From Pilasporangium apinafurcum (Eukaryota; Oomycota; Peronosporomycetes; Pythiales; Pythiaceae), in NCBI GenBank assembly GCA_001600495.1, contig BCKE01000067.1, forward strand, positions 108,896-172,895: a stretch of 64,000 bases of DNA, written 5' to 3'. The notes beneath the pieces are model-generated. The model was not told where the DNA came from. It did not search any database and saw only the letters and a list, made by a program, of their open reading frames with translations. Position numbers and translations under genes: made by a program. Position 1 is the stretch's first letter, and each line of letters begins with the position of its first letter. Below are positions 2,561-57,663 of the stretch, piece by piece.

Positions 2561-3130
2561 TCACCCCTGTGCCACGGCAGTCTCGGTCTCCAGACCAAAC
2601 TTGTCAATCCAAAATTGGATCTGATGGTCGTTATTGGAGTTATCCGTCGCACCACTAAAGATCGGACGCATGTAGACTGTGTCCGTCTTGACAGTCTTCT
2701 CGTCTACAATGGTTGTACGCACACATGTACCTTGCTGCCACAACGACAGACTCATCTTCCCCCACTGGTGGGACTGACCAGGTGGAATAGTGACATACCC
2801 GTTCGAGATCAAGTGTTCATTCACACCTTCAGCGACGGCCATGCCAAAGCCAGAGACAGTGCCTACAATCTCAGCAATCCCAGCAATGGCTTCAGCTCCA
2901 GTAGTTACTGCTGCTAGCGCACTGGTAGATACGCCCAGCACCGATACCACACCGTTGGCTCCTAATGCTGTGGCGATTGGAGCAGCAGCTCCGGCGGTGC
3001 CGATCACAGCCACAGCTGCTCCGACAACAGAGACGATAATACCGGCGATTTCCAGTGCAGCTTCATCCGGTCCGATTGTGCAGGTCCAAGTGTCTTGTGT
3101 GTTATTGACGATGGAGAGATAAGAGCCCAT
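2561..3130 (-). CDS. MGSYLS-family protein, copy 1
   Basis: 189 residues, first member of the local family. It starts MGSYLS, which fits the N-myristoylation pattern (Gly2, Ser6). Cys17 follows, then GPDEAALEIAG, and two Gly/Ala-rich hydrophobic stretches (about 28-50 and 57-75). A highly conserved C-terminal part holds IPPGQSHQWGKMSLSLWQQ, CVRTTI and the terminal block DHQIQFWIDKFG. There is no secretion signal and no known domain is recognised, so the function is unknown. A membrane-attached role through myristate and the hydrophobic hairpin is inference. Its Inr-FPR promoter lies at 3213-3228, giving a leader of roughly 100 nt. The middle third differs most from the other copies. Confidence 0.85.
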   Translation of the reverse strand: MGSYLSIVNNTQDTWTCTIGPDEAALEIAGIIVSVVGAAVAVIGTAGAAAPIATALGANGVVSVLGVSTSALAAVTTGAEAIAGIAEIVGTVSGFGMAVAEGVNEHLISNGYVTIPPGQSHQWGKMSLSLWQQGTCVRTTIVDEKTVKTDTVYMRPIFSGATDNSNNDHQIQFWIDKFGLETETAVAQG

Positions 3131-3212
3131 GGTTGTGTTGCTGGTTGGTAGAGAGCTGGGTCAGTACTTGGCTTGGATATGAGCTTGACGGCTTGGCTTT
3201 GCGCTGCTGATG

Positions 3213-3228
3213 GGAAGTTGTGGAATGA
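3213..3228 (-). promoter_or_regulatory. Oomycete Inr-FPR core promoter, copy 1
   Basis: On the minus strand TCATTCCACAACTTCC matches the oomycete initiator TCATTYNN followed by the flanking promoter region. Transcription should start at the A of TCA. The element aligns with those of the other family copies. Confidence 0.6.
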
Positions 3229-4187
3229 CACTGTTTCCAAAAGGATCGGCAATGCAAAGCAAGCAAATGTTTGCATTTGGGAGCTGTTCGGATACATTCT
3301 AAAAAATTGATGCCTTGAGACTTGTGCATATAGCCGGTCTCATTCCGGCTAGCTTGGTGGGCTGATGTGAAGTAGGACGGACCAAGTGTTTAAAAATCCA
3401 TGTATTATGCCGAACACTGTTATAATGTGGAGCTCTATCGAAAAAGATCTTGAAGTGGATGCATGAGCCACAAATGTGCTGGTGGTGCGTGAACAGTTGC
3501 ACCAATCGCAATCAAACAACGGCACTGCCAGCCACGTATTCTTCAAGTCTGTTTGTTATGACCCAGAAAAAAGCAAATCATTTATTAGTAAACCCTAACC
3601 CTTCTTTCATCAGATGGATTTTCTCCCTAAATAACTCGACTAATGAAAATTATTGCATTTGACAATCTCCAAATCGAAATGATCAATCCCATCAACAGGG
3701 ATTCCTGACTGGAACAGATCCGCCCGCAGAAATCTCGAGCGATTCTACACGCATTGGCTGAATAAAGAACGTCTATTTGTCTTTCTTGTTTTGAATATAG
3801 ATTGACATTTTCTATATGCTTTTAGTTTTTGGCTCATGAGGGGCATCTTGATCAGCTGCTGATATTGTTGAAGAGGAGATTCAATGGCATGGCTTAGATC
3901 AAAGACATCGAAATATATAACATGAAAGTGATCTGTATAGCATAGACCCACGGCAATGTTTGATATAAAGCGCGTCGTACATGCTCAAGCGGAATGTTGA
4001 TAAGGTTTTCGGTGTACAAAAGCGCTACAACTATAAGCTTCCAACCGAATAAAACACTACCCACTGTATAGATATCATGTCAATATAGATAATATTGCGA
4101 CGTTCACCAGTATGTCACACCGATTGAGCAATTTCAACGCTAATATTAGTATTAATAAGCATACAACATACATCATGCTTAGAAAAG
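3229..4187. other. AT-rich intergenic region
   Basis: About 960 bp with no supported gene. It holds a telo-box-like motif AAACCCTAACCCTT at 3590-3603. Confidence 0.5.
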
Positions 4188-4212
4188 CTGCAGGAAACGA
4201 CAAAGCTAATGT

Positions 4213-4767
4213 CTAAGATGCAACCGCAGTCTCAGTCTCGAAACCGAACTTGTCAATCCAAAATTGGATCTGATGGTCATTGTTCGACCCATCCGTCGCA
4301 CCACTAAAGATCGGACGCATGTAGACTGTGTCCGTCCGGACAGTCTTCTCGTCCATGATAGTTGTGCGCACACATGTACCTTGCTGCCACAACGACAAAC
4401 TCATCTTCCCCCACTGATGGGATTGACCAGGTGGAATAGTGACGAAACCTTCGGAGATCAAATGTTCTGTCACACCCTCAGCAATGGCATAACCAAAGTC
4501 CGAGACGGTACCAGCGATATCGACAATGTCTTTGATGGCTTCCACACTACTCTTTACAGTGGTTATGGCAGTTGCAGATACACCAACTACTGATACAACA
4601 CCATTGGCAGCCACTGGTGCAGCAGCACCACCTGTGCCAATGACAGCAGCAGCAGCTCCGACGACAGAGATGATGATACCAGCGATCTTGAGAGCAGCCT
4701 CATCTGGTCCGATCTTGCAGACGTAGGTGTCTTCGGTGTTGTTGACGATGGAGAGATAGGAGCCCAT
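4213..4767 (-). CDS. MGSYLS-family protein, copy 2 (identical to copies 3 and 4)
   Basis: 184 residues, identical in protein and apparently in DNA to the copies at 5615 and 7129. The order is a Gly2/Ser6 myristoylation-type start, Cys17, an Ala/Gly-rich hydrophobic segment (about 30-51), a second hydrophobic segment (55-70), a variable central part, and the conserved block from IPPGQSHQWG (111-120) through Cys132 to WIDKFGFETE. The gene lacks about five residues in the AAPVAANG region compared with copies 1, 5 and 6. The frame stays open upstream for 74 codons from a TTG, but that part is the 5' leader with a CAA repeat, so the ATG at 4767 is the start. Function unknown. Confidence 0.88.
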   Translation of the reverse strand: MGSYLSIVNNTEDTYVCKIGPDEAALKIAGIIISVVGAAAAVIGTGGAAAPVAANGVVSVVGVSATAITTVKSSVEAIKDIVDIAGTVSDFGYAIAEGVTEHLISEGFVTIPPGQSHQWGKMSLSLWQQGTCVRTTIMDEKTVRTDTVYMRPIFSGATDGSNNDHQIQFWIDKFGFETETAVAS

Positions 4768-4792
4768 AGTTGTTGTTGTTGTTGTTGTTGGT
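4768..4792 (-). promoter_or_regulatory. CAA-repeat 5' leader, copy 2
   Basis: On the minus strand the leader ends in about seven CAA units directly before the ATG. The same leader precedes copies 3 and 4. Unstructured CAA leaders favour efficient translation in other systems; that role here is inference. Confidence 0.4.
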
Positions 4793-4829
4793 GAAGTACT
4801 TGTTGGTAATTCGAATGTGTTTGGTTGAT

Positions 4830-4846
4830 GGCAAATAGCAGAATGA
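4830..4846 (-). promoter_or_regulatory. Oomycete Inr-FPR core promoter, copy 2
   Basis: Minus strand TCATTCTGCTATTTGCC: initiator TCATTCTG plus a CTATTTG flanking element. It lies about 65-80 bp before the ATG. Confidence 0.65.
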
Positions 4847-4849
4847 GTC

Positions 4850-5532
4850 AGTTGTTTAATAATGCATTTATTAATCGTTCTACTTGACTTTATCAGGGCT
4901 ATACCATGAGGATTACTTGATGTATTCATGTATACGAAGGCATAATACAAGAAAGCAACATCATTTCGCCACCATCTCTCTGTATCCAAAGATGGGAGAA
5001 ATTAACGTGGCTGTCATCACTTCTGTGATACTGGACTGGTATGCTCTGTTATTAATTGCAACGTTACTTTGTGATGTTGAGATGAAGTTGATGGAGGCTC
5101 AAACGCAAAGGTGGAGAGAGGGCCATCGGTCATTTTTTCACAATTAAACGACTATTAGTCATTAACTCTTTAATATTATACATTTTCAGCCAATCAAAAA
5201 CTATTATAAAGGATTTAGGGTTAGGTTTTATAATGTTAAGCTGTCCAAGCATTAAAGTAAAGAGGTTAGAAGCCATTGATGGTGGCGGTAGTGGCTTCGA
5301 CTTTTTGTTGACCTTTACGAAGAAGATTTGTTACATTGGAGACGTCAATTCATCAAATCTTCTTCGCAAAGGTTCACGGCGAGCAGGTGTCCTCTGAAAA
5401 TACGAGAAAGACAATGCCATTGTCTTCGGTGTTCAGCTGCGTTTGCTGTTACGAGAAAAAGATTGCGTTTTTAAATAGTTTGGGTTCACTCTTGCAGAGG
5501 GCAATCTTCAATAAAAAGCTTCTCTTTTGAAA
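4850..5532. other. Spacer between inverted copies 2 and 3
   Basis: No gene is supported. It contains a telomere-like string TTTAGGGTTAGGTTTT (5214-5229) and a 20-bp inverted repeat (5311-5373). Confidence 0.5.
5311..5373. repeat. 20-bp inverted repeat with 23-nt loop
   Basis: The left arm ACCTTTACGAAGAAGATTTG (5311-5330) pairs with 5354-5373 at 19 of 20 positions. No ORF explains it. Confidence 0.7.
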
Positions 5533-5535
5533 GAC

Positions 5536-5552
5536 TCATTCTGCTATTTGCC
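5536..5552 (+). promoter_or_regulatory. Oomycete Inr-FPR core promoter, copy 3
   Basis: TCATTCTGCTATTTGCC, identical to the copy 2 element, about 63-79 bp before the ATG at 5615. Confidence 0.65.
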
Positions 5553-5614
5553 ATCAACCAAACACATTCGAATTACCAACAAGTACTTCACCAACAACAA
5601 CAACAACAACAACT

Positions 5615-6169
5615 ATGGGCTCCTATCTCTCCATCGTCAACAACACCGAAGACACCTACGTCTGCAAGATCGGACCAGATGAGGCTGCTCTCAAGATCGC
5701 TGGTATCATCATCTCTGTCGTCGGAGCTGCTGCTGCTGTCATTGGCACAGGTGGTGCTGCTGCACCAGTGGCTGCCAATGGTGTTGTATCAGTAGTTGGT
5801 GTATCTGCAACTGCCATAACCACTGTAAAGAGTAGTGTGGAAGCCATCAAAGACATTGTCGATATCGCTGGTACCGTCTCGGACTTTGGTTATGCCATTG
5901 CTGAGGGTGTGACAGAACATTTGATCTCCGAAGGTTTCGTCACTATTCCACCTGGTCAATCCCATCAGTGGGGGAAGATGAGTTTGTCGTTGTGGCAGCA
6001 AGGTACATGTGTGCGCACAACTATCATGGACGAGAAGACTGTCCGGACGGACACAGTCTACATGCGTCCGATCTTTAGTGGTGCGACGGATGGGTCGAAC
6101 AATGACCATCAGATCCAATTTTGGATTGACAAGTTCGGTTTCGAGACTGAGACTGCGGTTGCATCTTAG
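5615..6169 (+). CDS. MGSYLS-family protein, copy 3 (identical to copies 2 and 4)
   Basis: 184 residues with the same sequence as copy 2. The ATG follows a run of CAA repeats (5590-5614). The family pattern is complete: MGSYLS start, Cys17 and Cys132, a glycine-zipper-like segment GIIISVVGAAAAVIG (30-44), and the WGKMSLSLWQQGTCVRTTI block. It diverges from copy 2 across a 683-bp spacer. Identity at synonymous sites implies very recent duplication or gene conversion, or an assembly duplication. Function unknown. Confidence 0.88.
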   Translation: MGSYLSIVNNTEDTYVCKIGPDEAALKIAGIIISVVGAAAAVIGTGGAAAPVAANGVVSVVGVSATAITTVKSSVEAIKDIVDIAGTVSDFGYAIAEGVTEHLISEGFVTIPPGQSHQWGKMSLSLWQQGTCVRTTIMDEKTVRTDTVYMRPIFSGATDGSNNDHQIQFWIDKFGFETETAVAS

Positions 6170-6194
6170 ACATTAGCTTTGTCGTTTCNTGCAG

Positions 6195-7048
6195 TTATGC
6201 TAGACTTAAAATTGGTCTATTTGCGTCTAAATAAAGTAATATACAAGTGTGAAACTCATAAAGCGGACGATATTGTCGCTCATGTTTGTTGGCGAGAACG
6301 ATCATCTTTTGCGTAATGACTTAATAATTGGAGTGAGATGACTAGATGATATAGAGGTCAGGTAGAATTCAATCCTAGCAGTGTATTGATTGATTTATTT
6401 TTCACATTACATGACACACACGAACTCTCAAGCACAATCTCTTTCGACAATGCTAACATTCCAGCTAACACTTTTGATTTTTCGAGTCAACCATCAATCT
6501 GAGCTTATTAATGCTTGCTTAGACCACAATTCTTCTCTCTACAACTTCAATATATTCTCTTTATCCGCCTTTCAAAGTCTTTCTCCATATACATAATTGA
6601 CTATTAAGACGCGATATATCCACATGTGCTACATGAATCACTGGTGGACATTGGGACCCAGTTCATCGACAGTTGAAGTTCATACCAATAAACTTAATAT
6701 ATTTCACCAGTCGATGCAACAGTCACCAATCTTGATAAAGAAGGGTTAGGTTCATAACAGTGACTTCGGAACACATGGATGGTAGCGTATCTTTTTATGG
6801 CGCTTTGCTGCAACCGAAGAAAGTTTGATGCACAATTGTTACCTTCTTCCATAAATATAGGCAGTCCAGCGGAGTGGACTGAGAAAGTGATGGACATTTA
6901 CCTTGTGTCTAGCTTTCCTCATCAATGGATGCACTTTTGACAACGTAACGATTTGTTTGTGGGTAAAACATATCATATCAATGGGATGTTGCTACAGCTA
7001 TCACATACAAGCTTCAAGCCCACTACTTTCAAGAAGCAGTCATTCTCT
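6195..7048. other. Intergenic region between copies 3 and 4
   Basis: No gene is supported. Around 6903-6971 a reading frame containing CLAFLINGCTFDNVT resembles the frame at 8408-8480 (CLAYHKDGYDFDDAT), so both may be relics of one ancestral sequence. Confidence 0.4.
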
Positions 7049-7049
7049 C

Positions 7050-7066
7050 TCATTCCGCTATTTGCT
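7050..7066 (+). promoter_or_regulatory. Oomycete Inr-FPR core promoter, copy 4
   Basis: TCATTCCGCTATTTGCT, differing from copy 3 at two positions. A second TCATTC lies just upstream at 7040-7045. Confidence 0.6.
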
Positions 7067-7128
7067 ATCAACCAAACACATTCGAATTACCAACAAGTAC
7101 TTCACCAACAACAACAACAACAACAACT

Positions 7129-7683
7129 ATGGGCTCCTATCTCTCCATCGTCAACAACACCGAAGACACCTACGTCTGCAAGATCGGACCAGATGAGGCT
7201 GCTCTCAAGATCGCTGGTATCATCATCTCTGTCGTCGGAGCTGCTGCTGCTGTCATTGGCACAGGTGGTGCTGCTGCACCAGTGGCTGCCAATGGTGTTG
7301 TATCAGTAGTTGGTGTATCTGCAACTGCCATAACCACTGTAAAGAGTAGTGTGGAAGCCATCAAAGACATTGTCGATATCGCTGGTACCGTCTCGGACTT
7401 TGGTTATGCCATTGCTGAGGGTGTGACAGAACATTTGATCTCCGAAGGTTTCGTCACTATTCCACCTGGTCAATCCCATCAGTGGGGGAAGATGAGTTTG
7501 TCGTTGTGGCAGCAAGGTACATGTGTGCGCACAACTATCATGGACGAGAAGACTGTCCGGACGGACACAGTCTACATGCGTCCGATCTTTAGTGGTGCGA
7601 CGGATGGGTCGAACAATGACCATCAGATCCAATTTTGGATTGACAAGTTCGGTTTCGAGACTGAGACTGCGGTTGCATCTTAG
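7129..7683 (+). CDS. MGSYLS-family protein, copy 4 (identical to copies 2 and 3)
   Basis: 184 residues identical to copies 2 and 3. The CAA-rich leader (7104-7128) and promoter are conserved. Copy 4 is in direct orientation to copy 3 at 1514 bp spacing. Upstream DNA has two changes while the gene has none, which fits gene conversion acting on the transcribed region (inference). Function unknown. Confidence 0.88.
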   Translation: MGSYLSIVNNTEDTYVCKIGPDEAALKIAGIIISVVGAAAAVIGTGGAAAPVAANGVVSVVGVSATAITTVKSSVEAIKDIVDIAGTVSDFGYAIAEGVTEHLISEGFVTIPPGQSHQWGKMSLSLWQQGTCVRTTIMDEKTVRTDTVYMRPIFSGATDGSNNDHQIQFWIDKFGFETETAVAS

Positions 7684-7708
7684 ACATTAGCTTTGTCGTT
7701 TCCTGCAG

Positions 7709-8401
7709 AGTTACTAGTATTTACTCTACATGGCACGCAATTTTATGATTCGTATTGGTAACGTAATTAATAAATGAAAGATTATTCTTTGAACAGACTT
7801 GATTGGTGTAATAATATCGCTTCTGGTGCTACTCGGTGGATACCATCATGTGATTATGAAGAGGGATAATCGAAGTAGTCTTAGTCCGAATAGTATAGAC
7901 CGCACGTATAGCTTTCCAATGTGTCGTTCGGTAGAATATGCTCGCAATTTGCTATAAGCCGCAAATGTCAGAAATCAAAACACCATTATGCTACCAAGAT
8001 TATCTGCTTGTGATTGTTCCCCCTCTCAGCTATTCTGCTCAAGTGGCTTTTACAAGACCTTCAGCCCGAATTCACTCTCGTCCGCTGCGTACCTCAAGTT
8101 CTATGCGTGATGGACCAGTAAAAGCTCCAAATTCACATCCAAGTTGCTTCACTTTCTAGTCGTCGATCATATTTGACTTGGATATCGATGATTGTTAAAT
8201 TTCACCAGTCGTGAATATTGTTCTCTGTTGACAACGAAATGTTAGGATTATCAGTTACTTAGAAAACGAATAAATCATTATATGAAGTGGTGGTGCTGTA
8301 ATCGAGGCTGATTTGATGCACTACCTCACCACTGCTTTGATATTTCGCTGTGCAAATAGTTAGTCTCGCTATCAATACACAAGTGCAAGCTAGTAATGGC
8401 T
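7709..8401. other. Intergenic region
   Basis: AT-rich, without a supported gene. It leads into the relic copy at 8402. Confidence 0.4.
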
Positions 8402-8800
8402 ATTCTTCCGCTATTTGCCTTGCTTATCATAAAGATGGATACGATTTTGACGATGCAACGATGGGTGTGTGGACCAAACAGAATGGACCCTTTGAACTTC
8501 GGTTGACCAGTGGTCTGGCATACACTCTAGATATTTAATTCCAGATTTCATCTCCAAAGGTTTCGGTATCATTCCGTCTGGCCAGTCCCATCAGTGGGGA
8601 AAGATGAGTCTATCGTTGTGGCGACAAGGCACTTATGTGAAAACGACCATCGTGGATGAAACGATAGTGAAGACGGAGATAATGTTACGTACATCTAACC
8701 TTTAGTAATACCACAGCTAATCCCAGCAATGGTCACGAGGTTCAGTTCTGGATTGACGAGTGGCTATGAGACTGCGACCATGGTGGCAGAAATGACATAA
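8402..8800 (+). pseudogene. Relic of an MGSYLS-family gene
   Basis: From about 8547 the frame reads ISKGFGIIPSGQSHQWGKMS, then SLWRQGTYVKTTIVDE, the conserved C-terminal block of the family, and is then broken by TAG and a frameshift. The end still shows HEVQFWID and a TAA. Upstream, ATTCTTCCGCTATTTGCC (8402-8419) is a decayed copy of the family promoter. The N-terminal half with MGSYLS and the hydrophobic segments is missing and replaced by unrelated coding-like sequence (CLAYHKDGYDFDDAT). The family Cys132 position reads Tyr here. Confidence 0.75.
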
Positions 8801-9065
8801 GGTAACAACTCCATATTTTGAATGCTTAATTCTCTGTGTTGAGAATTGATTATGCCTTGCACGCTTTTACACCAGAAAAAATATTTTCTGAATGCACAAA
8901 ATTCATATTTGCTCATGGAGGATAAACAGTGAGATCATGTATTATTTTTGTTTAAAAAAAGTATGCAAAATCAAGAGAGGAAAAAAGTGTACGCGCATAG
9001 CAAATTGTAATCTGCACAGTAAAGGGTCAGCAGGACACTCTCGAATTCAAATTGGTCCTATTTCC

Positions 9066-9638
9066 TTATGCTGTCTCTGCCGTCATGGTATCAGTCTCAA
9101 AGCCGAACTTGTCAATCCAAAACTGGATCTCATGGTCATTATTCGACCCATCCGTCGCACCACTAAAGATCGGACGCATGTAGACTGTGTCCGTCTTGAC
9201 AGTCTTCTCATCCACAATGGTTGTGCGCACACATGTTCCCTGTTGCCATAACGACAAACTCATCTTCCCCCACCGGTAAGACTGACCGGCCGGAATTTCG
9301 ATAAAGTCTTGTTTTTTCATTTCATGTAAGAGACCTTGAGCAAGCGCTACGGTGAAACCGGAGGCTGTACCGGCCGCTGTCACAGCACCAGTAACACTAG
9401 CCGCAGTCTCAGTGACGGTAACCAGCGCGGTGGTCGATACGCCTACTATCGATATCACGCCATTTGCGGCGAGATAGCTCGTGAGTGGCGCCAGCGCACC
9501 AGCGCTAGCAATCAGAAGGGCAGACGCGGTGAGGACAGTTCCAAGAATACCAGCGATCCTGATAGCGGCTTCGTCCGGTCCGAGCTTGCACATGTACGGA
9601 TCTGGGGTGTTATTGACGATTGAGAGGTAGGAGCCCAT
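9066..9638 (-). CDS. MGSYLS-family protein, copy 5
   Basis: 190 residues and the most diverged intact copy in its middle part (TVLTASALLIASAGALAPLT, then an Ala/Thr-rich stretch). The start MGSYLSIVNN, Cys17, the GPDEAA motif and the C-terminal SYRWGKMSLSLWQQGTCVRT block are kept. IEIPAGQSYRW replaces the usual VTIPPGQSHQW. The C-terminal third is nearly the same as in copy 1 while the middle differs, a pattern expected from partial gene conversion or from selection on the middle. Function unknown. Confidence 0.85.
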   Translation of the reverse strand: MGSYLSIVNNTPDPYMCKLGPDEAAIRIAGILGTVLTASALLIASAGALAPLTSYLAANGVISIVGVSTTALVTVTETAASVTGAVTAAGTASGFTVALAQGLLHEMKKQDFIEIPAGQSYRWGKMSLSLWQQGTCVRTTIVDEKTVKTDTVYMRPIFSGATDGSNNDHEIQFWIDKFGFETDTMTAETA

Positions 9639-9688
9639 GATTATTGTCGCGGTTGTCGGTTAATCTCGATGTTGGTTGCGCAGTTGGA

Positions 9689-9705
9689 GGCAAATATTGG
9701 AATGA
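9689..9705 (-). promoter_or_regulatory. Oomycete Inr-FPR core promoter, copy 5
   Basis: Minus strand TCATTCCAATATTTGCC, aligned with the other copies, about 51-67 bp before the ATG. Confidence 0.65.
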
Positions 9706-11692
9706 ACAAATATCTAAATAGTTGGAATTATTTACGCTGCATTAAACCTCCAATGAGGTGGTACTGATGACTACTACTTATCTAATCGATCATTCAGCAT
9801 GGATGTGCAAAGAAGGAGAGGCATTTGGTGTTGACCACCAAGAGAGAATCTGGTGTAGTAATCATTACACTCTACTCCAGACATCCTGATTTTCCTCTTC
9901 CGTCGTTTGTCATGAAAGATAACCGATGAAATAACTACCGTTTGGTTGGGCATGGTCAAAGCTTCGAGAGTCGAAATGGGTTCAAGACAGAGAGTATGAG
10001 ATGCGACGGCTCATATGCCTGGGTACCGCAAAAAAAGAAAGATATCGCAATTGGGCTATTCTGTGCTACATTTTGGTGAACTGATTCTCCAATTTTCTAT
10101 ATTTTCCCAGTTTATGCCAAGCAAAAGCAAGTCCATTTTGGTATTTGTTCTATATTAAATTTAGCTAATAACCATCTTCTCATAGCAAATGATTAGTTTA
10201 CTAAATGATTGGTATTTATATAATAATATAATACTATACTATTTCTATTCTAAAAAATAGTCTACTAAAATTAAACTAAATATAGAAAATTTTATTTTAT
10301 TAATATTTATTTTGGTGATTTAAGAACGTATCCTGACTAGAAACTAAAAATCAGGACGTATGGAGGAGAATGAAATGACTAAAATATCAGAACCCATGGA
10401 GAATGGATGATCACTCGCATACTCCTGTCTCATAAGATCACTGAAAGACGCGTCCTTCATGGACACACTCGCACACATGTACCTATTGAAGTTCGAGTAA
10501 ATAGTCTAAGGAAGAAACCAATCACAAAGCTCCGTATGTAGCCCACTTGCGACGGAGTTTGGCAAAAACTCATCATTCCAACATTTGCATCCAGCTGCAA
10601 CATTCACTCATAGCATAGCTTTGATCAGCGCCAATAGCAAGTAAAACGTCGTAAGCAATTTTTCATCTTTCCATCGTCAAGAATTTGGGAGATTTGCGCC
10701 CACACAAGCGCGGATTCATTACACCTAATCGGTCAGCTGATGGTGTCACTCAGGTCAATGCAGCAGCCGTCAAAAACCATCTGACAACCAAGAAAAAATC
10801 GCACAAGTGAAATGAAGTCGTGCGTAATACGTGGCCCAAAGCCTTGATTTGCGAGTCGGTGATGTGTGCGCTATTTAAATTGGTAGCAAAATCCTGATGT
10901 ACCTTCGTTGGTTCCTGTCGCCTGTGTCCTCGGGCTTGCCTTCACCTCAAGCACAAGGAGAAAATCAGAATTGCGTGACGTATCGGTGCGAAGGAATTGA
11001 GTCTTACGATGACGCTTTTCCCTATCAACAAATTAGTGTCCAGTCAAATTTCCGTTGATGATAAAGATATCTCCACAATGTCATCTCATTTGCTAGGCTC
11101 GCAGCTGTGGACCATCTTGCAACTTCCAGTCTTGTTCAAAAGCACGCTTAGCCCATGCATGAATCCATATTGTGAGTTCATCGATACGGAAATGTGGACG
11201 GCTTTGAAAAAATGGATATGAAGTAGAACGTTAATAAATTGATCAACCAGCTTTTGCACGAACTGAGTTGATCAAGATGCAGATAATAGTGATGAATGAG
11301 GTGATAGTATTGATCGGCCATGCAACCGAGATGAAGTTGTAAACGATAATCAGTCGCGACTTCCAGGATGCGACCCTGGTGACAATCGCACATTACTTGA
11401 CGATAGTGTTGAATTCCGATCGTATCATGGGATTGGACGGTGAAAAATTTATAAAATGATATGTTCCAAGCGTTGATGAAGAACGGAAAGACTTGTTCTA
11501 CGAGTTGATAAAGAAATATCCATATTTCGAGCGACTGTAAGAAGTCTATACGCAGCAGCTTTTCGAAAGTTCGATATGCAGAATTGGCATAACTTTCATA
11601 TTTTGCAAGCAAATTCGTTTTCAAGCAATATTGATGGGTTATCTTAAAGTCAAAAAATATGCACTGTTCAACGCCACAAAAGTCTAGACAAA
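9706..11692. other. 2-kb AT-rich intergenic region
   Basis: No gene is supported. 10150-10320 is very AT-rich. Open frames near 10997-11221 and 11178-11624 look like chance or decayed sequence without any recognisable motif. Confidence 0.4.
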
Positions 11693-12265
11693 CTAGGAAG
11701 TTTCCGCCACAGCGGATTCGGTCTCGAAGCCGAACTTATCAATCCAGTATTGGATCTGATGGTCGTTATTGGAGTTATCCGTCGCGCCACTGAAGATCGG
11801 ACGCATGTATACTGTGTCCGTCTGGACAGTACGTTCATCTACGATGGTTGTGCGCACACATGTGCCTTGTTGCCAGAGTGAAAGACTCATCTTCCCCCAT
11901 TGATGAGACTGACCAGGTCCAATTTCCACGAAGCCATCCTCCTTCAATTTATCACTGACACCCTTGGCGACTGCCATACTAAAGCCGGAAACTCCACCAA
12001 CGATACTAGCGGCCGTGCCAATGGAAGCGGCAGCGCCAGTGACGGTCGCTAAGGCACTAGTTGAAACACCTAGTACCGATACAATGCCATTCGCTGCTAG
12101 CGTAGAAGCAACTGGCGCCGCTGCACCGGCCGTACCAATCACAGAGGCAGCCGCTCCGATGACAGTGACGACGATACCGGCGATCTTGAGTGCGGCTTCG
12201 TCTGGTCCGATTTTGCACTGGTATGTGTCTGAGGTGTTGTTAACGATGGAGAGATAGGAGCCCAT
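11693..12265 (-). CDS. MGSYLS-family protein, copy 6
   Basis: 190 residues. MGSYLSIVNNTSDTYQC, GPDEAALKIAG, a Gly/Ala-rich hydrophobic segment (VVTVIGAAASVIGTAGAAAP), a second one (IVSVLGVSTSALATV), then EIGPGQSHQWGKMSLSLWQQ and the conserved tail with YWIDKFGFETE. It is closest in layout to copy 1. It is the last family member before the transposon, and its promoter is at 12309-12324. Function unknown; N-myristoylation is predicted from Gly2 and Ser6 only. Confidence 0.86.
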   Translation of the reverse strand: MGSYLSIVNNTSDTYQCKIGPDEAALKIAGIVVTVIGAAASVIGTAGAAAPVASTLAANGIVSVLGVSTSALATVTGAAASIGTAASIVGGVSGFSMAVAKGVSDKLKEDGFVEIGPGQSHQWGKMSLSLWQQGTCVRTTIVDERTVQTDTVYMRPIFSGATDNSNNDHQIQYWIDKFGFETESAVAETS

Positions 12266-12324: not shown

Positions 12325-12751
12325 ATTAATTTGTCAAACGCTTTGCTGCACAGTGTCGGTGTTATCACAAGAGCGGACCGTCACGAAAGAAAACGCGTGG
12401 GTGCATGTTCAATGGCGCCTTTCGAAAGTGTTATTCATTGACTTTGAGGTGTTGTAAAGTTGTGGGCAGTCAATTGCATTCTCAACCATAAGCGCACCAT
12501 TAGCATCGTCTAGAGCAACACGTTGTTCAACCAAAGCGGCTGTTTAAGACTATTTCTCATTAGTGGCCAAGCTAATCAAGCCAAACAGCAAAATGGGTTC
12601 ACAATCGTCTTTCTTTCTTGTCCACAAGTTTCGAAGTGAAGTCAGTGTGGGAACTGTACTATCACCATCCTAAGTGCGAATGTTATGATACGACACTAAT
12701 TAAGTTCAAATATTTAAAAAATAATACATAAAATAGTATGCATTAGTTAGC
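12325..12751. other. Intergenic region
   Basis: No gene is supported between copy 6 and the transposon end. Confidence 0.4.
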
Positions 12752-12784
12752 ATTATTATATTAGGCAACGAGAATGTCACCTTC
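12752..12784 (+). repeat. Left terminal inverted repeat
   Basis: ATTATTA, five unmatched bases, then GGCAACGAGAATGTCACCTT. It pairs with 16697-16729 at 26 of 33 positions, 19 of 21 in the inner part. A small hairpin (CCTTC with GAAGG, 12781-12797) follows inward. Confidence 0.65.
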
Positions 12785-12849
12785 CGTACCCGAAGGACAA
12801 TAATGTTCGAGACCCTCAGCCATGAAGTAAGGATCGAACTATCTACCTG

Positions 12850-14975
12850 CTACCCAAAGGCGCTAAGTAAACACTTTCTCTTTTTTTTGTACTCATAAGT
12901 TCTAGCTCTACAAAACTCTGGAGGTCGAGGTTCACCTTGGAGTTGTAGTTGAGTCAGACGTAAGATATTCTTGGACGCGTTATCATCTCGGTTCACAGTC
13001 ATACCATAACACACATTGCTTCTACAATGGAGTACACTATGAACCTTGAGATTACGTTTGATGCCGTCTCTGCACTTGCACTTGGAGTACTGGTTGACTA
13101 GCATTTCTTCACGACAGACTGCATGAATTTTACTAGTCTTGTACTCATCTGTCATAGTTCATCTCTCTTCGAAGTAACACTTACTCCAAGTGACTAAGAC
13201 GGTAGGCAGCTACCGAGAAGATCCGGGTGCAAACCCCACCGTTTATATTTTTACATACCCAGTTACATATCTGATAATGTTAGGACTACTCATTTTTACG
13301 AAAAGCGTAATTACGTCATCGCATGTTTATGCGCAAGGAAGAATGGTTGGTTCTTAGGCCATTAGGAAATGAATGGCTAGTAAGAAAGAGAGTAGTGCAG
13401 GCTAACACAATAATATCACTTTGCATTTTTCCAACTCCACAACAAACATCTTGATTACTCCAATCGCCAAAACCCACAATCGTTCGACGGCCAGCTTCCT
13501 CGGTCAACTTCAAACATAATTCACGCAACTTCTTTTGCATAAAAACGTATCGCTTGAACTTAAGATCACGAAAACGTTTGACCATGCTGAAATCAAGCAA
13601 CGTATCTACTCGAGGGATCAAATACTTGATATATATTTGAAAATATTGTAGAGTCACTGTCTTCTTGGTCGGCATGTTCCGAATAGCTTCGAGTACTTTT
13701 GGATTGTTGTCTTGCCAATAGCGAATCATTTTCCCGCTATGTTTGAATCGAGGATCTTCGTAGTATTCCTTGGCAGAACATGAAATCTTTTGCCCTTTCT
13801 GGTTCGTGCCACAAAAGATCTCTTCGACCTGGATTCAGACCCCATATCACCTTGTAATCCTTCAGCTTTAGCTCTTGAGAAATTACTTCCACTTTTGGTT
13901 TTCGAAGCGCGATGCTTACAGCTTTACCATCTGTTATAATTTCACTTGCAAACTTTCGGGTTTTGGTCTCAAACTTGTCAATATGAAAAAGCTTACACCA
14001 CTATTCTTCGGAAACATCTCTCCACCCATTACGTTTGGGAGGAATATCCAGACCAGCGCACTTTAGTAGTGCCCAAAGACCATCCGTACACATCTTGAAA
14101 TGGCTGCATTCAAACCCGCGCTTGTAAGAAAGAAGACTGAACAGACGAAGGTGTTTGTTGTCTTGGGTGTACTCCTGGACTGGATGCTTGGATTCAAAGT
14201 AGCGAAGAAATTTATACTACAATGGCATGAGTAAATGGGAAGCTTGAGTTACTTGTCCTTTCTTGTTTCGGGGCAACCGCAAACGATATATCCACACTAT
14301 TTCATCATCATCATTGTACTCTTGATCGAAAATATTCTTCAACATGTCGTACGCTTGTCTTCCATCCAATTGATAACGATGTTTCAAATATCGCTTGAAC
14401 CGTCAATAGAAGTTTGTCTTGATTGAATTTGAAGCATTCGTTGCCATTTGTTTACTGACGTTCTGATACCATCCTAATGTAATGGAAGAGGAATCTGCGT
14501 GTTTACAGTCGAACCACGCCAGGAATTGTAGAGATCTACGGATTCTCGGAACACATTATTCTTGATTGTTTTTTAGCTCTTTCTCCGACAGTCACAGCAG
14601 ACAAGCACTGATAGAAGAACGGCTGATTGAGTTCAGAAGCAAGACGGCTTTCTGCGCATAGTCGAGCAATGTGAAGATTGGCGAGCACGTACGCTTCAAG
14701 AACAGCTTTGTTCATATCACGTAAAACGTCCGCCCAAGGTAACGCCTTTGCTTTCTTTTTGCAAAACGACTTGAGTGTTGTCTTCACCACAGTAATATCC
14801 GTGTCGGCGTTCGTAGCTTTATGCTCGATCACGTTTGGACGTTGGTGCTTGGGGGCTTGGTTTCTTTAGTTTTCTTGGTTTGCAACTGATCGAGATCCAA
14901 CACGACCCCTTCGACGTCACTGTCTTCACTATCGCCCGGCTGGTGCTTCTTCTTCCGTGTCCCTTTCGTCGGCAT
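12850..14975 (-). pseudogene. Fanzor (eukaryotic TnpB-like RNA-guided nuclease), broken
   Basis: Fragments in order: a basic, acidic-spotted N terminus from ATG 14975 (MPTKGTRKKKHQ); the helical part 14832-14536 (LRDMNKAVLEAYVLANLHIA, then LNQPFFYQCLS); 14475-13810 in patches (FKRYLKHRYQLDGRQAYDML, GWRDVSEE, then RuvC-I as IWGLNPGRRDL); after a frameshift FCGTNQKGQKISCSAKEYYE and on to 13316 with IVGFGDWSNQD; and 13155-12850 with DEYKTSKIHAVC, a zinc-ribbon-like Cys pattern and the RuvC-III motif NRDDNASKNI. At least six stops or frameshifts were seen. The first catalytic Asp (GLDPG in the family) is Asn, with its codon at 13833-13835. Family assignment rests on motif order. Confidence 0.78.
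13180..13250 (+). repeat. tRNA-like (SINE-type) sequence inside the Fanzor relic
   Basis: TGACTAAGACGGTAGGC resembles a pol III A box, and GGGTGCAAACCCC about 30 nt later resembles a B box. It falls where the Fanzor frame is interrupted between the GFGDWSNQD and DEYKTSK parts, so an inserted tRNA-derived SINE fragment is possible. Confidence 0.3.
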
Positions 14976-15195
14976 GGCTAGTTGAAAAATGAGTTCGAAA
15001 GGAAGATACAAAATTGGTGTGCGTCGACCACTCTTACATGATTGACTAAAAAAAGTTACAGTTATGCATTCATTTGTTCATATATATGAACAGTCAGATA
15101 ATTCGATGTATTGTCTTATCACATTCCAAATGTTTCACTTTTGCGCAATCCATCTTCGTAACGTACAGTTCTTTGTTTACTTTCACTTTGACGAC

Positions 15196-15253
15196 CGATA
15201 CCGATCACCGACTACCGATTGATTTTATGATCGGTATTCGGTGATCGGTATCG
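15196..15253. repeat. 24-bp inverted repeat (long hairpin)
   Basis: Arms 15196-15219 and 15230-15253 pair at 22 of 24 positions around a 10-nt AT-rich loop. The arms are built from CCGAT/ATCGG units. It lies in the non-coding part of the transposon between the two gene remnants. Confidence 0.7.
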
Positions 15254-15967
15254 ATAACATGTTGGATTGCATGATTGGTCATTATTGCCAATCATCCATT
15301 CGTCAAAATCGACAATTGGTGTAACACATGCCTGACCTTGCGTTCGAGGTCAGACGACATTACATACCTCAAAGTTATTTCAATACATTAAGAGGGAAAA
15401 CAGTCAGAAATACATAGTTATATATAAATATATGTGTAAAGGAAGAAAGTGGAAAAATGATCGTAATCAGATTAGGAAAAAATGCATTGAAAGGGAGCTT
15501 AGATGTAGTGGTAGCGAACTAAGTCTTCCATCTAATTCACTTTTCATTTTGCCTTCAAGTTACCATCTCCGCCCACCAACGTTTTTGAAGTTCTTTGTGT
15601 TTCGACCAATCATATCTCTTATAATAGATTTTCGGCCAATTATAGTCGTCTAAACCAAGTAATCGTCACAAAAGATACACTTGAGTGTGATTGGTGTTCA
15701 CTTGAAGCCGAAAGTAAACTTAAGTTATACAATCAAAAACGATACTGCTCTGGGAATCCAAACAAGAATAAGCTGCTGAAACGAGAAAAAGAACTAAAAA
15801 ATCTGTTGTGAAGAATGTGGTGATTCATTCAATAACAAGAATTCTTTGTCCCAGCACAAACGTAGCCATCATTACAAAAGCTAACAGTCTGCGATTTGGA
15901 CTCGAAGAACTGGACTATGTGTTCTAAAATATATCAATTTTGAGTATTTGTCGACAGTGCAAGTTAA

Positions 15968-16667
15968 TCAACTTGCGCTAGAGATTGCAGTTAGATCATA
16001 ATTACTACCAGCAGCATTGTCTGGCTTTTCTTCTTTCTTCTGTGGCCACGTCTGTACGGGTAGCAGTTTCTTGCTTACCGAGTTCACACTTCCTGAAAAC
16101 AAGCACCAATCAACAACGCCATTGGGTGATGCTGCTAAGATCAATGAATGTAAATTTCCTCGTTTTCCTGGTTTTCTCACAATAGCTCTCTGACCTTTCA
16201 CACCCCATGCGTACTTTCGACAATGATTGGCAAAGAACGCTGCTTCATCTAACGCTATCCATTTTCTCTTTGTATGTTTGGATAATGATGCCAAAAAATG
16301 GCGTTGTTGTGCTCTACAGGCTTCTTGATAAGCGATGGAAGCCTTTTTGTACGTGATTTTATGTTCTGGCAAAATGCGTTGGCTTGTTCGTAAAGAGATG
16401 TTAACGTCATATATATTTTTTTACAAAAGTAACTCCGTCAGCAAGTGTGCTTGTATTGTGATTGAGAAAAAAATTGACGAGTTGGTTGTACTGGTTGTCA
16501 TTCAATTTTCGCAGATGAGATCGATTGAGAGGTTGTGCAAACTTAACACCACTAAACCAACGCTGAATGGTTCGTTTGCATACATCAAGAATATCAGCTA
16601 TCTTGTTGAGGGTGAACTTTTTGGTCCGAAGACGAAAACAAATTTGTTGTTCAGCAATCGATTTCAT
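15968..16667 (-). pseudogene. Tc1/mariner (IS630-type) DDE transposase, frameshifted and truncated
   Basis: 16667-16407 encodes a helix-turn-helix DNA-binding part (FTLNKIADILDVCKRTIQRW). A one-base frameshift in a poly-A/TA tract near 16402-16412 joins it to DVNISLRTSQRILPEHKITY and the start of the catalytic domain. WIALDEAAFF carries the first catalytic Asp, followed by KYAWGVKGQRAIV and SLILAASPNGVVDWCLF. The rest, including the second Asp and the Glu/Asp, is missing before the stop at 15968. Confidence 0.8.
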
Positions 16668-16696
16668 GACTATATATTTTTTATAAATAAAAAAAT

Positions 16697-16729
16697 GAAG
16701 GGGACATTCTCGGTGCCACGAGTAATAAT
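16697..16729 (-). repeat. Right terminal inverted repeat
   Basis: Reverse complement of the left repeat with 26 of 33 matches. The core GGACATTCTCGGTGCC is at 16702-16717. A clean TA target duplication is not visible. Confidence 0.65.
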
Positions 16730-18859
16730 TCGCACTTCAAAATCTATTGTGCCGCTGCTGGATCGAGTAAGCTACATATAGGCAAGCGGAGTCAGTGCGC
16801 GACATTTTTCGGCGCGTGAGTCACCGCGTACCTATCGATGCTCAATACCAACGGTGAAATTTTGATGTAAGTCGGTTCAGTTATGGGGTTCAAAGTCCCA
16901 CTTCCTAATACATGGCAGAGGGAATCATAGAAATGTTTTGAGCGTTTCTGGTTCCAAAGATATCTTTATTTCGATTAAACCCGCAGCTGTTGATGCAGGT
17001 TGTGCTGTTATCGATTTATAATTCCTATCACAGTGGAGCCACGTCTAAAACTGATCTAGCATCGAATATTCATGAGAACATCGGTTTAAGGAGAAAATCA
17101 TACTCTACGAAGTACCGAAAACACGAACGAATCGCCTGATTCTTTCCACACACATGAGCTCCAGCAACTCAACCCACGTGTGGTGATGTGCACGTACGTA
17201 CCCAGCAGACAGCTGGACTCGCTGCTCTTGTCGACTAAGATGCTCGGAATAATCGAGAAAGGGAGGCATAACATAGGTAGGCAGCTTGCTCATGCCGATC
17301 TCAGTTAGCGCATCTAAGCAGATCACTTACGTACTAAAGTTTAACAAAGTCTGCTCAAAGCGCTATGTGTTCAAGATTTCCATCCAGTTACACAGTGTTA
17401 CTCATACCACTCGTCGTACTACTTTATTAAAGCCTTGGGCAGATGATCCCTTAGTCATATATGCATCTTATGCTTGATACTGCTTGTGGTATATGCAGGC
17501 GGACTCCCGTGTACAATTGTATTTTACCAATGACAATACGAACCGGCTGACATCTGGCAACAACCAATCACGTCGAAATGCATCCTCCTCCCTACATACA
17601 CAAAAGTATTCAGTCACTTTCTCTGACGTGCCAAAGAAGATGAAAGTAATATAGGATATGTAAATCCATTTGTCCAGTTTCAAGGTGGTCCGTAGAAATT
17701 ACGTAAGTGGGATGTCTGCTTTTTTGTTGTTTCGTTCTGACCCATTCTCTGATGTTGTTGGATGCGTCACATGTTCCACTTCAACATCACCGAGTGGCTC
17801 TTTTACGCCCAGATTTCTCTAGAACGGCTACAGACTTTTCCGCTATGTCGCTTTTTTTTTTGAGGGATAGATGAACAAAGCGACTGGAAGTTTTTGAAAT
17901 TTCTCAAGCACTGTATCTGTGTCAAAGAAAATGTAGTCATTAGTTTGTTGTACAGCATACCTTTGTAGTGCTCTTTACACACCGCCAAACATTGCATGGA
18001 TAACAGTTGTGGCACTGTATTTACCTCTGCTCGGACTAAAAAAAGCAGAAAATTCATCATACAACTTTGTGGAATTCTTAGCCCTTATGGATACTCCTTT
18101 TTCGCAACGCAGCAAACGACCAGCGAAATTGACTGAATGGCGTATGTGGATCCGTACTTGCACATGGGTGTTATAATATCTACAGTAGATAGGATCTCGC
18201 AAGCAGCCTTCACCAGGCTGCGTCTAGTAAACAAACGTGACGAATAATGTACCTGCTACCGCTAAAATCGAAGAAATCAGCGCCTTATAAGTTCAGTTTC
18301 TTGAAGTTTCGTGCGAATTGCGTATGGCGTGTGGGGGCTTCGGTGGCGATAGGATTTTTCCAACAGTCTCCCACTCTTCTTGCTACAAATGGCGAATGTA
18401 TAAAGTTCTTCGACGTTCTTCATAGTGGCTTCTTACCCCAGTCACATAGTTGCGTGATCCTCTTGTGCTACATCTGCTCCACGTGTTATGGAAATAGTTC
18501 GTCATGGTCACGGTAAAGAAAACTCCAGATGATCCACATGCATTGAAATGATCAAGAATGCACAATTTTCTTCATTTAGGCTCACTTATTTCCCACAAAT
18601 TCAATTTATTGTGTTTTTGTAATTAATATTTTCTTTGGAATTATTATTTTTTTTGGGTTTTTTGCTTTGTTCCATAGCTGACATCGGAGCACAGCGACTA
18701 CAAAGTCCTGCACTTGACATGGAAGGAAGACGGCAAGGCAGACATTATTAAGCTGTGCATCTTTGTTTGCTATTTCCATTGATAGTATTATTATTGCAAT
18801 TCTCGGTTCAAAAATATCACTGTATACATGATGTGCGCAATTTGGGCAAATAGACAGAC
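16730..18859. other. 2.1-kb region without recognisable genes
   Basis: Short frames only. The minus strand around 18202-17803 has a patch of coding-like sequence in two frames (SRGKYSATTVIHAMFGGV, then a stop), perhaps a dead gene, but no family can be named. Confidence 0.4.
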
Positions 18860-57210: not shown

Positions 57211-57663
57211 TCTAGCATACAGACTAAAACTGTGTGAATGCGTTTGAAAAGTCGGTAGATTCTCTCGCTGTCCACAGATACTCTTCCTATACTCTACTCT
57301 CTTCCGACATTATATCTTCTTCGTCGTAACTCGAATGGTCTTGGAAATCTACGTAGGAGACACATAGCGATTGTGAGAATGTTTTTCGATGCATTGACGT
57401 CTCGTTCCCACGTCATTCTGCACTCGCTGTTGTTGCAGCGGAGAACCTGGTGAGAGTCCTAGTTCATCGACCCGGTATGCGTGCTCGATGTGCAACGTAT
57501 TGTGAAATGACTTTTGGGTCATGATGGGATGGTCAAATATATTTACACTGCACGTCACCATCCATGTCTTTTGGCTCTTATTTTTTTCAGAAAACCAATT
57601 CGAAGCGATAGAATGACATTAGCAACGAAAAAAATCGTGGTCTACTGTGCTGTGGTAGCCCGA
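57211..57663. repeat. Diverged direct repeat, copy A
   Basis: Matches 60975-61410 in the same orientation with blocks such as GTCGTAACTCGAATGGTCTT, CTACGTAGGAGACACAT, TTGCAGCGGAGAA and CCATGTCTTTTGGCTCTTAT. On the minus strand both copies keep a similar reading frame (FDHPI, then SPLQQQR, RRQ, IEK, VSPT), suggesting an old coding mobile element. Confidence 0.75.

Follow-up and report, generated by a model that had tools for sequence, protein, structure and literature searches.

A probable fossil mariner-type transposon bearing transposase and Fanzor1 remnants in the oomycete Pilasporangium apinafurcum

A 64,000-nucleotide stretch of Pilasporangium apinafurcum DNA (the window; contig BCKE01000067.1) contains, between inverted repeats, the remnants of two genes that are both read from the minus strand: a DDE transposase of the IS630/Tc1-mariner group, which comes first, and a Fanzor nuclease by the left end. 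A sequence-only reading of this DNA had proposed such an arrangement, i.e. a mariner-like transposon carrying both genes, and the repeats, the gene identities, their order and their strand were borne out by the analysis. The left terminal inverted repeat lies at 12752-12784 (plus strand) and the right one at 16697-16729 (minus strand), with the proposed identity of 26 of 33 positions between the arms. A repeat finder lengthens the arms to 40 nt at 75% identity, and their inner 21 nt (12764-12784 and 16697-16717) form a core that is identical at 19 of 21 positions. The transposase ATG is found 29 bases inside the right repeat; the Fanzor stop, confirmed at 12850 as the end of the last minus-strand open reading frame, is 65 bases inside the left repeat. 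The composite is seen as one copy in the window.

The transposase is preserved in two minus-strand pieces between which the reading is interrupted (break from 16410 to 16399). The first piece, 16410-16667, is the N-terminal helix-turn-helix part (Pfam HTH_23, E 1.8e-4, below cut-off), and the second, 15971-16399, is the start of the DDE domain, matched by NCBIfam IS630 and Pfam DDE_3, with the family match stopping at ~16076. A joined query of the two pieces linked by X and cut at ~16079 matches IS630 with E 2.5e-17 and 63.3 bits over model positions 3-206 of 299, truncation of the transposase keeping the score under the 100-bit curated cut-off. The second piece alone matches the IS630 model at positions 97-207 of 299 (E 2.5e-10) and DDE_3 at positions 4-62 of 146 (E 2.2e-4 to 2.5e-4). 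Search with the whole second piece served as a control against the query cut itself causing the truncation; the IS630 match of the uncut piece ends at model position 207 of 299 despite 35 further residues supplied. The three minus frames from the transposase onward to 14976 gave no NCBIfam or Pfam match. Thus the last third of the protein, which would include the catalytic second D and third D/E, has been lost or can no longer be recognised, and the remnant is a broken family member whose match ends at model position 206-207 of 299, short of a complete DD(E/D) domain. The best PDB match of the transposase was at chance level only (E 0.26).

The Fanzor remnant extends over five minus-strand pieces in three frames, from 14975 to 12853. 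The presumed N-terminal piece (14832-14975) and the second piece (14539-14841) are assigned by position only and gave no Pfam match at E<=1. The third piece (13809-14567), which carries the RuvC-I motif, aligns from 14402 on to SpuFz1 of Spizellomyces punctatus, as does the fourth (13445-13813), which carries the GDWS motif. An interruption of ~285 bases in the coding sequence follows (13160-13445, minus strand), in which no Fanzor reading is seen by eye, and beyond it the C-terminal piece (12850-13170) again aligns to SpuFz1 and contains the DEYKTS motif, the zinc ribbon, the NRD motif and the stop. In-frame stops occur in the third piece at 14558, 14405, 14219 and 14003 and in the last piece at 13161, although the stop at 14558 may be located ahead of the true join between the pieces.

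For comparison with known proteins the third piece (from 14402), the fourth and the fifth were joined into one query that is not a letter-for-letter translation. Its sole match in the PDB at E<=10 is SpuFz1 (8gkh), with E 0.0072 and an alignment that spans the RuvC-I, GDWS, DEYKTS, zinc-ribbon and NRD motifs. The catalytic residues given for SpuFz1, D383, E541 and D606 (PMC10432273, PMC11423790), all map to 8gkh chain positions with one constant offset, 394. At these positions the residues of the remnant are N, E and D, the first acidic one being altered; N is reported to be tolerated at the third catalytic position (PMC11423790). The Fanzor1 signature, described as D ... [TS][TS]xx-C4 zinc ribbon ... 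RD (PMC3627910), is partly kept in the remnant, with TS, RD and, by eye, three of the four zinc cysteines (the first being H), but with N in place of the first D. Among PDB sequences, the joined query is closest to Fanzor1 and not to TnpB or Fanzor2. The joined query matches NCBIfam guided_TnpB with E 0.0064, far below cut-off, and the C-terminal piece alone matches Pfam Cas12f1-like_TNB (E 0.011, below cut-off) and, in the PDB, the TnpB-like L79 (E 0.52); the middle piece alone gave no PDB match. All family matches of the composite fall under curated cut-offs. Two further sub-cut-off Pfam matches of the joined query, "Elicitor peptide" (E 0.0072) and RPT (E 0.029), were judged to be due to chance.

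A second and more decayed Fanzor scrap, interrupted by a stop, lies elsewhere in the window at 57315-57452 on the minus strand. It shares 49% identity over 47 residues with the Fanzor C-terminal piece described above (E 1.6e-6) and matches Pfam TNB with E 0.0013, below cut-off; no core repeat with <=3 mismatches was found near it.

The terminal inverted repeats are beyond what shuffled sequence yields. When one zone to the left of the Fanzor stop is compared with another to the right of the transposase start, the best ungapped inverted match scores 20, a value reached by none of 300 dinucleotide shuffles with 150-base zones (top score 17) and by none of 300 with 300-base zones (top score 14). 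Real sequence is less clean, since 8 of 245 random zone pairs from the window score at least 20 (these eight uninspected), and the locus might on that account be put down to chance, two unrelated gene remnants merely happening to lie between inverted repeats. However, in a second control sample taken away from the element, all six of the 486 zone pairs that score at least 20 have at least one arm inside a tandem gene family at ~2.5-10 kb, i.e. the inspected pairs are duplicates within one gene family. Together with the shuffles at both zone sizes and the position of the arms at the expected ends of a mariner, this makes such a coincidence scarcely credible. A search of the 64-kb window with the 21-nt core pattern at <=3 mismatches found the two arms only and no third site; as the arms themselves supplied the pattern, the search is informative solely on the absence of further copies.

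The close packing of the repeats round both genes fits one mariner-type element. We consider it probable, at roughly 0.8, that the locus is a single old and inactive IS630/Tc1-mariner transposon in a eukaryote, with tandem minus-strand genes, the transposase at the right end and Fanzor1 at the left end, all of which would have moved as a single unit. Its target would have been TA. As a tentative duplication, TA occurs at 12757-12758 and, in register with it, at 16723-16724, five bases outward from the core at either end, but none of the five positions separating this TA from the core match between the arms, and TA directly beside the core occurs on the left side only. Searches of the window for an empty site, with the flanks and with the flanks joined, found none.

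The same remains might derive from two elements, a Fanzor-only transposon lying within or beside a mariner, with its own ends either decayed or of the same mariner repeat kind. Fanzor-only Mariner elements such as PUl-4 have been published (PMC3627910), ~1 kb of non-coding DNA separates the transposase from Fanzor, and one of the ten inverted pairs detected in 12400-17100, a weak pair at 12418-12437 / 14983-15002 (15 of 20 matching), encloses Fanzor alone. That pair, however, is no better than the others among the ten, and its left arm falls outside the strong repeat on that side by ~310 bases, whereas the strong repeats closely surround both same-strand genes; a two-element origin is accordingly rather unlikely.

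A single transposon with both genes would have clear precedents. Mariner elements encoding a transposase together with Fanzor1, including PUl-1 and PGv-1, were reported by Bao and Jurka (2013, PMC3627910), whose Table 1 gives Fanzor1 families for the oomycetes Pythium ultimum (PUl, 6), Phytophthora sojae (4), P. capsici (2), P. ramorum (1) and Albugo laibachii (2), and the Fanzor-Mariner link is restated in the review literature (PMC10711439). The architecture and its occurrence in an oomycete were thus already published in 2013 (PMC3627910), and the present copy is a further example, itself broken. PUl-1 of Pythium ultimum, compared by its published description, shares a Mariner-like transposase and Fanzor1 within one terminal-inverted-repeat element, and PGv-1 of Phaeocystis globosa virus likewise is described with both genes in one element (PMC3627910); the present element, in contrast, has two broken genes with a zinc-finger scrap in the space separating them, and its TA duplication is at most tentative. 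PGv-1 is described as having in addition a GIY-YIG nuclease gene (PMC3627910), whereas a Pfam search of the minus frames found none here. PUl-4 also has Fanzor1 between Mariner repeats but according to the same source is without a transposase gene, of which a remnant is present here. SPu-1/SpuFz1 (Spizellomyces punctatus; 8gkh) is similar in having Fanzor1 between inverted repeats of ~30 nt and in RuvC positions that align with those of the remnant; it differs in its intact copies, its active enzyme and, as described, in having no transposase inside the repeats (PMC3627910, PMC10432273).

An omega-RNA had also been expected between the Fanzor stop and the left repeat, and for this part of the proposal the analysis gave no positive evidence, folding there being about shuffle-like (z -1.3 to -1.6). 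The small hairpin noted in that stretch does form when 12785-12850 is folded, but it is not distinctive, as 19 of 200 shuffles equal it (z -1.30). The minus strand from 12900 to 12752 folds with z -1.33, with 18 of 200 shuffles as good, and that from 13052 to 12752 (301 nt) with z -1.55, with 5 of 100 shuffles as good. Across the whole window no Rfam family attained its gathering score, and ARAGORN found 0 tRNA genes in 12785-12900 and 13160-13445. For these two stretches a known-RNA explanation yielded one sub-threshold snoRNA match (E 0.78), and a repeated-copy explanation yielded no extra copies at E <0.8. The coding interruption at 13160-13445 has no further copy in the window. Stretches resembling a tRNA B-box are seen by eye at 13190-13245 and 12800-12860, perhaps as scraps of a tRNA-derived SINE, with ARAGORN and Rfam unsupportive.

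These results bear on whether the locus could still function, either as a transcribed, part-kept Fanzor or as the source of an omega-RNA serving a Fanzor made elsewhere, a "ghost" as in Spizellomyces. Ghost elements with omega-RNA and without protein have been reported (PMC10432273), and a functional locus would be consistent with the persisting active-site E and D, with the second Fanzor scrap in the window, and with the 301-nt stretch out-folding 95 of 100 shuffles. It is nevertheless very improbable in view of the frame shifts between all five Fanzor pieces, the in-frame stops and the ~285-base interruption, the N at the first catalytic position, and fold z values of only -1.33, -1.30 and -1.55.

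In the active phase of a single mariner-type element, binding of the terminal repeats by the transposase would have led to cut-and-paste movement of the element into TA sites, and the Fanzor would have cleaved DNA with an RNA from the element as its guide. Such cutting possibly aided the keeping or copying of the element; the role of Fanzors is given as unknown in PMC10432273. Neither gene is intact today, and this copy would be a fossil, one more such instance of a mariner-borne Fanzor1. Why cut-and-paste transposons should carry a nuclease guided by RNA is a question that the broken copy itself cannot answer; intact copies, should any exist in the host or in sister species, would be candidates for addressing it.

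The DNA between the two genes has features of its own. A C2H2 zinc-finger scrap lies there on the opposite (plus) strand at 15810-15884, within the stretch 15680-15885 (Pfam zf-C2H2_4, E 1.3e-5; 25.9 bits, just under the cut-off, 27), and a second finger-like stretch can be seen by eye in another frame ahead of it. That the element was once a three-gene mariner like PGv-1, with an opposite-strand zinc-finger protein as a middle gene and previously undescribed cargo, is quite improbable. Upstream of the Fanzor start, at 15196-15253, is a hairpin of two 24-nt arms that are 96% complementary, with a 10-nt loop, and it is by eye composed of ACCGAT-like units.

Relatives of the element were also looked for in viral and prokaryotic sequence. 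Patterns from four of the seven protein pieces fit 4, 15, 7 and 11 stretches in viral contigs, and a pattern from one transposase piece fit 84 stretches in prokaryote genome contigs; none of these was confirmed. The Fanzor tail motif and the core repeat each gave 0 matches in viral contigs. Five viral loci recovered with back-translated DPGRRDLF were set aside, since their motif-bearing frames resemble, by eye, unrelated proteins. That these viral and prokaryotic scans brought up no relative says little, as none would be expected for an element of eukaryotes. The window's gene content, which includes dynamin and a WDR19-like propeller, is eukaryotic. To the left of the element, at 2561-12265, is a tandem family of short genes on both strands whose products start MGSYLSIVNN, with six copies of at least 150 aa; the single member tested had no Pfam match. 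The element sits just upstream of the copy of this family at 11693-12265.
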